From positions 1 through 64,000 of the forward strand of contig JAOUIH010000010.1 of NCBI GenBank assembly GCA_029884165.1: a DNA stretch of 64,000 bases, written 5' to 3'. The notes beneath the pieces were generated by a model. The model saw only the letters and a list, made by a program, of their open reading frames with translations, searched no databases and was not told the origin of the DNA. This DNA comes from Gammaproteobacteria bacterium. GTDB taxonomy: Bacteria; Pseudomonadota; Gammaproteobacteria; Steroidobacterales; Woeseiaceae. Position 1 is the stretch's first letter. Each line of letters starts with the position of its first letter. Of the stretch, positions 55,930 through 64,000 are shown piece by piece. A program made the translations under genes and the position numbers.

Positions 55930-57237
55930 TCAGCGCGCGGCGAGGACTTCGTCCAGCTGTTCCAGGAACAGGTCGGCATGTTCCCGACGAAATACCATCG
56001 GCGGCCTGAGCTTCAGGATGTTCGCGTCCGGGCCGATCGTATTCGTCAGGATACCGCGATCCCGCAGGTTCTCGACGACGTCAGCCGCGAGCCGCGTCGC
56101 CGGCGTGCGCGCATCGCTGTCCTCCACCAGCTCGACGGCGAGGAACAGGCCGTGCCCGCGTATGTCGCCGATCGAGGGATAGCGCCCGGCCAGCCGCCCG
56201 AGCCCGGCCTTCAGGTGCTCGCCGACATCGAGCGCATTTTGCTGCAGGTCGTCGCGCTCCAGCACGTCGAGTACCGCCAGGCCCGCCGCCGCCGATACCG
56301 GGTTGCCGCCGAAAGTGTTGAAGTAGCTCGTCTTCGAGGCGAAACGCTCGGCCAGGGCGCGCTGGACGACCGTGGCGGCCAGCGGATGCCCGTTGCCCAT
56401 CGGCTTGCCCATCGTGACGATATCCGGCACCAGGCCCTCGGCCTCGAAACCCCAGAAATGGCGCCCGGTGCGACCCAGGCCCGGCTGAACTTCGTCGGCG
56501 ATGAACAGGCCGCCGGCCTCGCGGACGATTGCCGCGGCCCGCGCAAGGTAGCCCGGCGGCGGCGCGACAACGCCGCTCGACGAAATGATCGTATCGACGA
56601 TGAAAGCGGCCGGCGCGATGCCCCGGCTGCCGAGCGTTGCGATGGCGTCCTGCAGGCAGTCCGCGTAACGAGCCGCAGCGTCCTCGCCACGGTGCTGCCC
56701 GCGGTACAGGTCGGGAGCCGGCACCGCGACCACCCACGGCGGGCGCTCCGACTCCGGCGTATCCTCGGTGGAGATTGCGGCGGTCGCCTGCGTATTGCCG
56801 TGATAGGAAAACTCCGTCGCGATGACGCCGATGTTGCCGGTAGCGGCACGCGCGATGCGCAGGGCCAGCTCGTTGGCTTCGGAGCCCGTGCAGCTGAACA
56901 TCGCGACGTCGAGTGCGGCCGGCATCCGGGCGAGCAGCCTGTCCGCGTAATCGATGACGTTCCCGTGCAGGTAGCGCGTGTGCGTATTCAGCGTCGACAT
57001 CTGTCGCGTCAGGGCGTCGACCACATGCGGGTTGCAGTGCCCGACGTGCGGCACGTTGTTGTACATGTCGAGGTAACGCCGCCCGTCGGCGTCTATCAGC
57101 CAGACACCCTCACCGCGAACTATGTGCAGCGGTTCGCGGTAGAACAGCCGGTATGCCGGGCCGAGCAGGCGCTTGCGCCGGGCCAGCAGGCGAGCCGTTT
57201 CAGCACTGGAGGATCCGGGTCGTTTGCTCTGGGTCAC
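55930..57237 (-). CDS. PLP-dependent class III aminotransferase family protein
   Basis: A 435-residue fold-type I PLP enzyme. It shows [59 protein letters not shown] and the PLP lysine (about 278) in [11 protein letters not shown]. The [11 protein letters not shown] block resembles the ethanolamine-phosphate phospho-lyase / AGXT2-like branch more than plain beta-alanine transaminases. Both roles would fit: beta-amino acid removal after pyrimidine breakdown, or phosphoethanolamine use beside the lipid synthase gene upstream. The start is GTG 57237. Confidence 0.88.
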
Positions 57238-59741: not shown

Positions 59742-60068
59742 TTGCTGCACCTGCGTGTCATCCGGTTCCCGATTCTTCGAACGGCGGCGGCAACTCTGGT
59801 TCCGCAGCCGGGCAATTACTTTACATAACGTCGTTTCGGTTTTTTTTACAGCGCCGTCCCGGCCCGTTTTTCAGTAGATATAACAGCTCGTTATCAGGTC
59901 TCGCGAGCCCGTTTTGAGCGGCCGGGCAAACCGGCACGCCGAATGCGGATTTCGCGTTATACTCGCTGCACATTTGCGCACCGAGAATTATTACTACAGA
60001 GCGCAGGTTTCAGTCGCCGGCAAAATATTACTCGGACAAAGGGCGACGGTTCAGGGTGAGCGAGCAAA
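59742..60068. promoter_or_regulatory. Divergent intergenic region before the giant secreted protein
   Basis: About 330 bases with clearly AT-richer patches and no gene. TATACT at 59958-59963 is a possible -10 for the plus-strand gene, without a convincing -35. A T-rich run lies near 59840-59850. GGTGAG at 60055-60060 is the likely ribosome site of the ATG at 60069. Confidence 0.4.
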
Positions 60069-63000
60069 ATGTCCAGGGAAGTCTTTCGTAGCCGGCTTGC
60101 GGCCGGTATTTTCGCATGTGCCATTTTCTCCGCCATTGTTTCCGGCAGCGCCTGGGGACAGGCCGTTCCGCAGAAGAACGTTAACGCGATCGGGCCGACG
60201 CCACTCTTCTGGCTGTACACGGGTAACCCCCGCATGCAGCAGAACGAGCCGGAATGCGCCGTTTCGCCGACGAACCCGGAGTGGCTTGCCTGCGGTTACA
60301 ACGACTACCGTGGCGTCAACGATCCGGCAATCGGCGACGCGTTCCCCGGTATCTCGATGTCGCGCGACCTGGGCCAGACCTGGATCAGCGGCCTGCATCC
60401 CTGGCACCTCGGCGACCTGCCGTCGCTCGGCAAGAAATTCGGCGCCGACGCCAACCTCGAAGCCCTGCCCGGCTTCCTGATGTACAACTTCATCGCCGGT
60501 TGGCGCGACGACAGCCAGCCCGGCGGCGTCTATATCTCGCGCTGGTACGAGCACAACCGCGAAGTCGGACCGCCGTGGGAATTCCTCGATACTGTCCAAA
60601 TCGACATCGGCACCGCCGGCCGCTTCCTCGACAAGCCCGCGTTCCACGCGGCGCTCCGCAATCCCGACGACGGCCGGCCGGACATCTCCATCGCGATCCC
60701 CGCCTACACCGACCCGCGCAACGTCGCGAATTCGCACGCGGCCTACACACTGAAAGTGCCCGCCGCCCGCGCCTTCATCTGCTACTCGGTGTTCGTCGGC
60801 AACGACAACAACGACGGCACGAAGATCAACTGCCTGGCCTCGGACGACGGCGGCGCAACCTGGCCGGTCAAGACCAAGCTGACCGAGAGCATCGACATCA
60901 ACCAGGGCGTAAGCATTGCGTCGCGCAACTATGGCCAGGAAGTGCTGGCTGTCTGGCGCCGCTTCTCGGACAACAACGAGACCAGCGCCATCATGTATTC
61001 CTACTCGACCGACGCCGGCTCGACCTGGGGCAAAGCGGAGGTGCTCACGGAGTTCTGCGCGTTCGACCAGGGCACCGGCCCTGCCCGGTTCCGGACGAAC
61101 GCCCTGCCGGTCGCGGTAAGCGACGGCGACGGCTTCGGCGTGTACTTCGCCTCGCGCAACAACGCGCGGGAAACCTGCGTCGTGCCGGCCAAGGGCAACA
61201 CACCCGCGACGCCGCGCATGAGCCCGGTCGCGCTCGAGGACGACTTCGACTCGTTCGGCGAGACGACCGCAGCCGACGGCAGCCGTATCCGGGACGGCCG
61301 GGTACGGACCTCGCTCAACTTCTCGCGCATCATGATGGTCCGCTCGAACTCGGGCGGACGGCTGAACTGGGGCCAGCCCGTGATGCTGGATCCGCAGGAA
61401 AGCGCGACCGGCGTCCGCCGGCGCGGTCACCAGTTCATGCCGGCCGCCGAATCCGCGGGCGGCATCGAGACCGTGTCCTGGTACGACACCCGGCTCGACA
61501 AGCTGAACAACCTGCCGACGCCGCTGGCCGGCGGATTCGTCGAAGACCTGGTGCTGCACCTCGAGCCGGAAGGCGGCGTAGGACCGGGCGTCGAGTCCGT
61601 GGCGCTGCTGCCTAGCGGCATCTACGAACAGACCCCCCCGCCGCCCCAGCTGCCGCCCGCCGGCAACAACATACCGCTCAGGCGGACGATCGACGTCTTC
61701 GCGGCGCAGGTCGTCGGCGGCGGCGTGCGACCCTACGTCGTCGACCCGGCCGACTGGTACCCGACGATCGCGTCCGACCCGAATGCGACCAGCTCGCCAT
61801 CCACGCGCGTATCGCGTTACGCGACGCGGCAAAAGCCGAACGCGGCGCCCGGCGTCCGTGAGCAGGTCGAATGGGATTATCCGAACGGCCGGCTGTTCCG
61901 CAAGGGCAAGGCGCCGTTCATCGGCGATTACAACTCGGTCTTCGCCGTGCAGGCACGGCAGCGGCAGGACGGGGCGTGGGTCCCGAACCAGACCGCGCCG
62001 GTACCCGGCATCGACCTGTTCGGCTCGCAGGAGCCGGTATTCCACGTCGGCTGGACCAGTAACCGCAACGTCCGCGGCCGTGTCTTCTATACCGGCTGCG
62101 ATACCTGGGACGAGACGCTGCAGATGTGGGTCTCCTCGCCGGGCTGCGAGAGCACCTACACCGACCCGAACCCGGCACTGATGCTGCCGCTGCAGGGCGA
62201 GGACGGGGCGCTCGACGGGCCCCCGCTCAGCTGCTCGGCCGTGGCGCCCGGCGGCCGCACCGGTCCGCTGACGCGCAACCAGAACATCTATGTCGCGGCC
62301 ATGAAGCCCGGCATCAGCGCCAACGTGCTGTCCGCGATCAAGCCCTCGGTCGGCGGCATCAATACGTTCGTGCTGGGCCTGCAGAACGGCTCGCAGGCGG
62401 ACCGCCTGGTGCGGCTGTCGCTGCCGGCGGGCGCCGTGACGAGCTTCGACACCGACGGCCCGGACACCCTGCTCAGCGTCGACGTCCTCGTCCCGAAGGG
62501 CTCGGGCAACGCGCGCACCGTGTTCGATTTCGGCAATTCGGCGTCCGACCCCGGCCTGCCCGACCAGGTCGTCGTGACGGTATCCGACGCAAACACCGGC
62601 CAGGTGCTCGCGCAGGTACCGCTGAAGCGCTCCACGCTGGAGACGCCGCCGCTCGAAAACGTGCAGAACAACGACCCGGACAACCTGGTCAACCTGGTCG
62701 GCGACTTCGAGTTCTACCAGCTGATCCTGAAGCGGGAAATCGGCACGACCCAGTCGCTCGATCTCGAGAATCTCGACCTCGAGAACACTGTTTACATGCT
62801 CGATCTCGAGAACCTCGACCTCGAAAACCTGGATCTCGAGAACCTCGACCTCGAGAACCTCGACCTCGAGAACGTGGTCCTGTTCCTCGACCTCGAAAAC
62901 CTCGACCTCGAAAATCTCGACCTCGAGAATGCGCTCTATGAGCAGCTCGATCTCGAGAACCTCGACCTCGAAAATCTCGACCTCGAAAACCTCGACCTGG

Positions 63001-64000
63001 AAAACCTCGACCTGGAAAATCGCAACCTGTTCTTCCTGGACCTGGAGAACCTCGACCTCGAAAACCTCGACCTGGAGAATCTCGACCTCGAGAACCTCGA
63101 CCTGGAGAATCTCGACCTCGATAACCTCGATCTCGAGAACCTCGACCTCGAGAACTTCACGGTCTACGCCTCCGACATCGAGAACCTCGACCTGGAGAAC
63201 CTCGATCTCGAAAACACGGCCGTCGGCGCGGACTACACCGAGATAAGCTGGACCGCCGACTCGGCCACGAACACGACGACCGGCGTCGACGTCAAGCCGA
63301 TTTTCAGCCCGACGCTGCAGACGAGCCTCGCCGAGGCGGGCACGACCGTGGTGCTGACGGTGCGGCAGGGCTACATGACCAGCACCGTGCAGAACAACGA
63401 GGCGTTCGCGGCACCAGGCCTCTACTGCACGCCGCAGGTCGTGGTCGAAAACCAGCTGATCTACGCGGCGGTACTCGGCCCGGACGAGATCAACAACCTG
63501 ATCGCGGATCCCGACCCGACCGTGCCCGGCACGCCGTCTTTCGTTATCGAGCCGGACGCATCGAAGATCATAACGCTGCGTTTCATCAACCCGCCGGCGG
63601 GCATGGATATCGTCGAGCTGAGCGCGAACACCGGCATGGCGATCTACGCCCAGCCGGGCGGCACGTTCAACTGCGACGCGGAACTCGGCGGCGCTGAAGT
63701 CCACGATCTCTGCGAGATCGACTACATCGCGCCGGATTCGACGGCACCGGTCCTGACGATCGGCGGCGACAACCCGGCAATCGTCGAGGCGAGCCCGCTG
63801 GGCTACAGCGACGCCGGCGCGACCGCCCAGGACGACAAGGACGGCGACATCACGGCATCGATCCTCGTCACGAGCACGGTCGACGCGAGCACGCCAGGTC
63901 TTTACTCGGTGGATTACGAGGTGAGGGACGCCGCGGGTAACGTCAGCACGGCAGCCCGATCGGTCGTCGTTGTCGATACGACCCCGCCGGCGCTCACCGC
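60069..64000 (+). CDS. Giant secreted protein: Asp-box propeller, LDLEN pentapeptide array, Ig-like domain (3' end off window)
   Basis: At least 1310 residues; the frame stays open to the right edge. A signal peptide ends near SAWGQA (about residue 31). The N-terminal half has sialidase-type Asp boxes (SRDLGQTW, SDDGGATW, STDAGSTW near residues 97, 258 and 314), suggesting a beta-propeller. After a beta-rich linker (about 700-895) comes an array of LDLEN repeats (897-1049), a further beta domain, and a DUF5011/HYR-like Ig domain (from about 1223; YSDAGATAQDDKDGDIT) that suggests more repeats beyond the edge. No catalytic set was found. It is probably a surface or released adhesive, binding or structural protein. 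The ATG at 60069 follows GGTGAG. Confidence 0.9.
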   Translation, partial: MSREVFRSRLAAGIFACAIFSAIVSGSAWGQAVPQKNVNAIGPTPLFWLYTGNPRMQQNEPECAVSPTNPEWLACGYNDYRGVNDPAIGDAFPGISMSRDLGQTWISGLHPWHLGDLPSLGKKFGADANLEALPGFLMYNFIAGWRDDSQPGGVYISRWYEHNREVGPPWEFLDTVQIDIGTAGRFLDKPAFHAALRNPDDGRPDISIAIPAYTDPRNVANSHAAYTLKVPAARAFICYSVFVGNDNNDGTKINCLASDDGGATWPVKTKLTESIDINQGVSIASRNYGQEVLAVWRRFSDNNETSAIMYSYSTDAGSTWGKAEVLTEFCAFDQGTGPARFRTNALPVAVSDGDGFGVYFASRNNARETCVVPAKGNTPATPRMSPVALEDDFDSFGETTAADGSRIRDGRVRTSLNFSRIMMVRSNSGGRLNWGQPVMLDPQESATGVRRRGHQFMPAAESAGGIETVSWYDTRLDKLNNLPTPLAGGFVEDLVLHLEPEGGVGPGVESVALLPSGIYEQTPPPPQLPPAGNNIPLRRTIDVFAAQVVGGGVRPYVVDPADWYPTIASDPNATSSPSTRVSRYATRQKPNAAPGVREQVEWDYPNGRLFRKGKAPFIGDYNSVFAVQARQRQDGAWVPNQTAPVPGIDLFGSQEPVFHVGWTSNRNVRGRVFYTGCDTWDETLQMWVSSPGCESTYTDPNPALMLPLQGEDGALDGPPLSCSAVAPGGRTGPLTRNQNIYVAAMKPGISANVLSAIKPSVGGINTFVLGLQNGSQADRLVRLSLPAGAVTSFDTDGPDTLLSVDVLVPKGSGNARTVFDFGNSASDPGLPDQVVVTVSDANTGQVLAQVPLKRSTLETPPLENVQNNDPDNLVNLVGDFEFYQLILKREIGTTQSLDLENLDLENTVYMLDLENLDLENLDLENLDLENLDLENVVLFLDLENLDLENLDLENALYEQLDLENLDLENLDLENLDLENLDLENRNLFFLDLENLDLENLDLENLDLENLDLENLDLDNLDLENLDLENFTVYASDIENLDLENLDLENTAVGADYTEISWTADSATNTTTGVDVKPIFSPTLQTSLAEAGTTVVLTVRQGYMTSTVQNNEAFAAPGLYCTPQVVVENQLIYAAVLGPDEINNLIADPDPTVPGTPSFVIEPDASKIITLRFINPPAGMDIVELSANTGMAIYAQPGGTFNCDAELGGAEVHDLCEIDYIAPDSTAPVLTIGGDNPAIVEASPLGYSDAGATAQDDKDGDITASILVTSTVDASTPGLYSVDYEVRDAAGNVSTAARSVVVVDTTPPALT
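62757..63215 (+). repeat. LDLEN pentapeptide-coding tandem array (15-bp unit)
   Basis: Twenty-five units (24 LDLEN and one LDLDN) plus one SDIEN, in blocks of 2, 5, 3, 5, 8 and 2 separated by short hydrophobic inserts (TVYM, VVLF, ALYEQ, RNLFF, FTVYA). The DNA unit is close to CTCGACCTCGAGAAC with many synonymous changes (CTG/CTC, GAC/GAT, GAA/GAG, AAC/AAT), so selection on the protein, not recent slippage, keeps it. The pattern x-D-L-x-x fits the pentapeptide-repeat rule for a four-sided right-handed beta-helix. Confidence 0.93.

Follow-up and report, generated by a model that had tools for sequence, protein, structure and literature searches.

Pentapeptide repeat proteins (PF00805 and PF13599) adopt a right-handed quadrilateral β-helix, and natural pentapeptide repeats are usually degenerate. 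The present study concerns a five-residue repeat with nearly identical units. It lies in a 64,000-nucleotide stretch of DNA (the window; contig JAOUIH010000010.1, positions 1 to 64,000, from an uncultured, marine-type Gammaproteobacteria bacterium of the family Woeseiaceae), in a gene for a large, probably exported protein that carries 26 units of the LDLEN type between a sialidase-like propeller and Ig-like domains. A consensus for the pentapeptide was given in 2019 as (A/C/S/V/T/L/I)(D/N/S/K/E/I/R)(L/F)(S/T/R/E/Q/K/V/D)(G/D/E/N/R/Q/K) (quoted in PMC8145042). Two pentapeptide-related solenoids have also been described: the Knotted Solenoid of Brevundimonas, the sequences of which diverge freely (PMC13123833), and a YjbI-type pentapeptide protein, which is secreted (PMC12864828). 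In the family analyzed herein, the repeated word switches between clades, and a tetratricopeptide repeat (TPR) gene is linked to the array gene. These results are the stronger findings and were not foreseen in the original prediction, which was made from the letters of the window.

Layout of the LDLEN array

The array consists of 24 LDLEN units, one LDLDN unit, and one SDIEN unit. In array order, the block sizes are 2, 5, 3, 5, 8, and 3, with the last block comprising SDIEN and two LDLEN units. The original prediction had described 25 units in blocks of 2-5-3-5-8-2; the array was confirmed, whereas the count is 26 and the last block has three units. The longest uninterrupted block contains eight units, the pentapeptide repeat family being defined by at least eight contiguous consensus pentapeptides. 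The array and its inserts are as follows.

62757..63215, + strand: LDLEN array of 26 units, residues (codons) 897-1049, from sequence reading and Tandem Repeats Finder
62787..62798, + strand: insert TVYM; TVYM or TALM in the orthologues
62874..62885, + strand: insert VVLF; AVLF or KIVF in the orthologues
62931..62945, + strand: insert ALYEQ; ALYEQ or SLYTN in the orthologues
63021..63035, + strand: insert RNLFF; RNLFY in L005 and an LDLEN-type stretch in L004
63156..63170, + strand: insert FTVYA; FTIYA or VSIFA in the orthologues, with the variant unit SDIEN, SDLEN, or ADVEN directly after it

Tandem Repeats Finder gave the 15-bp array a score of 387; the next best scores in the window were 131, within the same array, and 57 elsewhere. 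The frame of the array is the coding frame: domain matches on either side are in the same frame, and two orthologues with 63-67% identity keep it. These orthologues are L004 (JAHEFD010000002.1, from a Woeseiaceae metagenome-assembled genome, which is also the record of G021) and L005 (JAOTVR010000057.1, identical to the protein of G106). A search for further genomes with the propeller, LDLEN array, and Ig-like domains had been proposed, and it returned these two, in which the array is in frame with 25 and 24 units, respectively. The main inserts (TVYM, VVLF, ALYEQ, and FTVYA in the window) follow in the same order in both, in the forms listed above, and the number of units per block varies among the three arrays.

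An antisense frame at 60051-63998 (- strand; 1542 residues when extended) was rejected as a gene and attributed to high G+C content and periodic codons. Minus-strand PF00805 matches over the array were also rejected, as antisense readings of periodic DNA. No RNA family was found in the array region.

Replacement of the repeated word among relatives

Members of the family were present in 28 of the 107 sampled genomes of the same taxonomic family, including that of the window, while a profile search with the part preceding the array detected a member in 34 of 296 genomes of the order, other families included. In a phylum-wide sample of 398 genomes, the only match was in the genome of the window itself. 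The array protein had no match in plasmids and phages, and three consecutive LDLEN units were absent from viral contigs and from a class-wide sample of 368 other genomes. A mobile or phage origin was rejected on the lack of plasmid, phage, and viral-contig matches.

In more than 30 relatives, all of them within the order among the genomes sampled, an in-frame repeat track occupies the same place, between homologous domains; these are the relatives whose sequence reaches that far. However, the unit words differ by clade: LDLEN; PELIN; PLIEN and PLLEN/PRLEN; ANLLN; PAIFN, PAILN, and PAVLN; PNLKN; PAYRN; PDQFN, PDQYN, PDEFN, and PDEFA; LQALN; PGIQA; PTFQT; PDVQN and PDIQN; PNYEN/PNLEN; PDPNN; and NPLIM-TRD. 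The repeat unit of the NPLIM group is ten to twelve residues rather than five. On a tree of the part preceding the array (the propeller side), unit types group as clades, and G020 and G125 each encode two paralogues with different units. No track was found in the short propeller-only relatives G253 and G277.

Several arrays have peculiarities of their own. The NPLIM-TRD repeats of 10-12 residues replace the pentapeptide array in L086, L088, and L089, which belong to another family. The ANLLN arrays of L029 and L056 extend over about 310 residues with long unique stretches between units, whereas the arrays of other clades are compact. The PDPNN unit of L091 (G145) has no hydrophobic residue and would be hard to square with a β-helix core.

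Selection on the units

Codon differences over all unit pairs of the window array amounted to 557 synonymous and 75 non-synonymous differences, and all 75 of the latter trace to the two variant units. Within the arrays of the family, unit pairs differ synonymously at 1.2-2.9 of five codons, and amino-acid differences are absent from most single-word arrays and few in the rest. The window array showed 1.86 synonymous differences against 2.05 expected from codon usage in the remainder of the gene, and nine other arrays were likewise near their expectation. The LDLEN orthologues contain 13-17 distinct nucleotide versions among 23-24 exact LDLEN units. Since synonymous sites are near saturation while amino acids have hardly changed, uniformity appears to be held by selection and not by recent duplication. 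Long-term selection, which had been proposed from the synonymous drift between units, is thus supported.

The arrays also retain the positions of their odd units; in two clades they do so although all units were altered together. In the PLIEN pair G097/G095, codon differences were 0.93 between units in the same slot and 2.44 between slots (permutation p 0.0005), which indicates that the array was static on that time scale; this signal was saturated in more distant pairs. The PELIN (G009, G125), PLIEN (G097, G095), and PLLEN (G018) arrays each contain 18 units counted from a conserved ELHN cap, and unit 11 is [LYF]GF[AE]N in all three types. Unit 7 is MELEN or MELEA in the PLIEN and PLLEN groups. 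In G114, Ala takes the last position in 14 of the 15 units, a position held by Asn (Thr at one slot) in G026 and G108. A change from Asn to Ala requires two base changes per unit, and the marker units remain in their slots (PDEY as unit 5 and PDLY as unit 7). Had the array been amplified anew from a single unit, these markers would have been lost. We infer that selection for uniformity has acted on each unit or that very short conversion events took place long ago, two processes that these sequences separate only in part. The results obtained suggest that regularity itself, and not a particular word, is what selection protects.

Fold of the track

LDLEN is within the pentapeptide consensus at all five positions. 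The original prediction that it fits the pentapeptide-repeat pattern was borne out by an ideal sequence of 16 LDLEN units, which scored 25.3 bits on PF00805 (cut-off 20.2). When nine cyclic orders of the LDLEN residues were compared on this profile, LDLEN was the best at 25.3, and the other eight scored 17.0 or less or were unscored. PF13599 did not discriminate between orders (LNLED 35.9, LDLEN 31.3). The profile check suggested at the outset had a divided outcome: the idealized array passed PF00805, whereas the real array remained under both cut-offs (19.7 vs 20.2 for PF00805 and 35.4 vs 38 for PF13599). A homologue with ANLLN units passed PF13599 (38.2 vs 38), and the PAIFN array nearly passed PF13576. 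The array also matched designed and natural β-helix proteins (4yc5, E=1.8e-9; 2o6w, E=1.2e-6). With the pattern LxLxx, both Leu residues would face the same side of a strand, and the Asn in fifth position would suit a turn, as in pentapeptide β-helices.

However, several results weigh against a β-helix. No real pentapeptide match was obtained for the PELIN, PAVLN, PDVQN, and PDQFN arrays in the Pfam comparison, and the PDPNN and PDEFN units have no hydrophobic residue where the core of a β-helix needs one. In a charge-hydropathy plot, LDLEN, PNLKN, PAYRN, PDQFN, PDEFN, and PDVQN fall among disordered sequences. Some of the phmmer and Pfam repeat matches may partly reflect periodic composition. 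AlphaFold gave the array with its flanks (A3) a mean predicted local distance difference test (pLDDT) score of 36, with about 27 for the array, from a three-sequence alignment, an uninformative result. The mean pLDDT for the propeller with the domain preceding the array (A4) was 29, and confidence was also low for flanking domains whose folding is hardly in doubt. These models were kept out of fold searches, in which their matches would be meaningless. Extensin-like Pfam matches of the PLIEN, PAVLN, and PDVQN arrays were rejected as compositional, and a coiled coil was rejected for the LDLEN array because the period is five and a heptad is absent. The β-helix proposed in the original prediction is plausible but unproven; we favor a rod as the fold of the track, in a roughly even balance.

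The host protein and the adjacent TPR gene

The features of the host protein within the window are as follows.

60069..64000, + strand: coding sequence of the propeller-array-Ig protein, codons 1-1310, from the open frame, in-frame Pfam domains, and the orthologues L004 and L005
60069..60164, + strand: probable Sec signal peptide MSREVFRSRLAAGIFACAIFSAIVSGSAWGQA, read from charge and hydrophobicity
60177..62078, + strand: sialidase-like Asp-box (BNR) propeller, about residues 37-670 with approximate boundaries, from BNR_2 and the family profile
62232..62738, + strand: β-rich domain between the propeller and array, about residues 722-890, conserved in the family alignment A1 and with strands in low-confidence models
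63216..63638, + strand: post-array β-sandwich-like domain ("N.GN.TT" domain), with a homologous domain after the array in aligned relatives
63771..64000, + strand: first part of the Ig-like/HYR region, from PF16403 and PF02494 HYR matches

The open reading frame from 60069 runs beyond the window to a stop at contig position 66098, and the full protein has 2009 residues. PF13088 BNR_2 matched the window protein at E=1.8e-4 (21.4 bits, below the cut-off of 31.4) and was matched at E<0.01 in 12 of 19 family members; the best PDB matches of the family profile were GH33 sialidases (E about 0.01). The Ig-like/HYR region, about residues 1235-1870, is mostly past the window end and contains several copies above the cut-offs (PF16403, 168.8 bits, cut-off 27; PF02494 HYR, 111.5 bits, cut-off 21.7). 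A C-terminal PxKF ("rightmost") domain, NF038114, scored 15.3 bits in the window protein and 20.9-24.9 bits in three relatives, all below the curated cut-off of 35. An exported protein combining an Asp-box-type propeller with Ig-like domains had been predicted, and the probable signal peptide and the BNR_2/sialidase and HYR/PF16403 matches agree with it. The relative L087 (G114) has poly-Asp runs within its propeller region (residues about 294-342).

Directly beyond the array gene, past the window end, is a convergent gene for a 697-residue TPR-repeat protein (contig C262 66226-68316, - strand; L003:11227-13317). The N terminus of this protein probably contains three membrane segments, as read from its sequence, and its C-terminal part matches TIGR04510 (peptide-modification cyclase) below the cut-off. 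An orthologue of the TPR gene adjoins the array gene in 26 of the 27 loci that had sufficient flanking sequence: 23 pairs are convergent at about 20-210 bp, one is tandem (G145), and two are divergent (G020b, G116b). G116a is the sole testable locus with no TPR neighbor, and the propeller-only genes also have none. TPR neighbors are 35-72% identical to the window copy, while paralogues from the same genome are 25-41% identical over partial lengths. A close TPR copy (E <= 1e-100) was present in 12 of 147 sampled genomes of the order, and ten of these 12 genomes also have a propeller-array gene or fragment. Regarding the other two, G132 shows no propeller-array gene nearby in a 9 kb flank, and the contig ends in G158. 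TPR domains are found in export and surface-assembly proteins, and the TPR membrane protein may serve the export or assembly of the array protein. An aminotransferase-like gene is located a few kilobases upstream of the array gene (55930-57237, - strand), and G002, G021, and G024 have similar genes upstream of theirs.

Possible functions of the track

We give an even chance to the track being a regular spacer or assembly rod between the head and stalk of a large, exported, surface- or matrix-associated, adhesin-like protein. The sialidase-like propeller would be the putative N-terminal binding or enzymatic head. The five-residue track would adopt the shape of a regular rod, probably that of a pentapeptide-type right-handed β-helix with four sides, residues 1 and 3 pointing inward and Asn lying at the turn. 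This rod would set the distance and orientation between the head and the stalk, which consists of Ig/HYR domains and the C-terminal PxKF-like domain; rods of neighboring copies may also pack against one another.

A flexible, disordered polar linker, in which composition drifts freely and repeats are kept for linker length, is a possible but rather unlikely alternative. The six words on the disordered side of the charge-hydropathy plot, the pLDDT of the array, and the PDPNN array with no hydrophobic core are consistent with a linker. However, disordered linkers are not normally identical from unit to unit with near-saturated synonymous sites, the unit count and odd-unit slots are kept even though the preceding domains are only 55-65% identical, and the ANLLN, PAVLN, PAIFN, and LQALN units are clearly hydrophobic. 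We regard recent DNA slippage or unequal crossing-over, producing an array with no functional constraint, as highly improbable. The LDLEN orthologues do differ in unit number (24-26); however, the many nucleotide versions of the exact LDLEN units, with no non-synonymous difference among them, and the codons shared by same-slot PLIEN units argue against it.

It had also been proposed that the acidic array binds cations (calcium would be one candidate) or mimics an acidic polymer. The net charges of the LDLEN (-52), PDEFN (-29), and PELIN (-16) arrays range from strong to mild acidity, and the first two favor this proposal. In contrast, PAVLN (-1) and LQALN (0 to -2) arrays are near-neutral and PAYRN (+1) and PGIQA (+1) arrays slightly basic in the same place. 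With charges from -52 to +1 among relatives, an acidic face is not a shared function; the acidic ladder was not supported, and its binding role is improbable, although a lineage-specific role could remain. A further possibility is a homophilic zipper, in which identical faces on neighboring molecules pack, so that the word changes only as a set and provides a lineage-specific code for self-recognition. This would explain the uniform outward positions, coordinated in-place replacement, and two words in one genome (G020, G125); however, the same pattern may arise from selection for a perfectly regular rod or from repeated gene conversion obscured by time, and we assign the zipper little probability. 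The track may also be read as a regular self-matching surface through which neighboring molecules pack unit against identical unit. Selection would then keep all units of an array alike, whereas the word could change, as a set, from lineage to lineage. The surface protein would thereby assemble homophilically in a lineage-specific manner, and the neighboring TPR membrane protein would be dedicated to its export or assembly. We consider this combined reading decidedly unlikely.

As a natural experiment, the family bears on the requirements of a repeat track: regularity, and not any one side chain. In the slot-conserved arrays (PELIN/PLIEN/PLLEN and PDEFN/PDEFA/PDQYN), the joint change of all units becomes directly testable, and the conserved TPR neighbor gives genetic access to function in bacteria that have received little study.

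Comparison with known systems

In the open-access library searched, which omits most subscription papers, we found no description of an adhesin whose parts follow this order and nothing relevant on the unit motifs or the propeller-array-Ig architecture. Among the closest systems are large repetitive HYR/Ig-like adhesins with a C-terminal PxKF domain, which share the HYR and PF16403 repeats and, in several members, a weak NF038114 match; the propeller head and uniform five-residue track set the present family apart. The propeller region weakly resembles GH33 sialidases and Asp-box (BNR) propellers, a likeness by profile that is below the cut-off in the window protein; unlike GH33 sialidases, the window protein adds a repeat track and an Ig stalk.

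The Knotted Solenoid and YjbI are pentapeptide-related solenoids with no sequence or taxonomic link to the array family found. The Knotted Solenoid was rejected as the identity of the array because it is described from Brevundimonas only (PMC13123833), and its sequences diverge freely, whereas the units are uniform within each array herein. Designed, idealized pentapeptide β-helices (PDB 4yc5, 4yfo, and relatives) share the regular unit and are the best PDB sequence matches of the array; however, they are artificial, and in the LDLEN array the two inward-facing positions would be Leu in each unit. Pentapeptide repeat proteins share the five-residue period and the consensus to which LDLEN conforms. 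In contrast to them, the present units are virtually identical in each array, are switched wholesale between clades, have Pro at position 1, outside the consensus, in many relatives, and are embedded in a giant exported multidomain protein.

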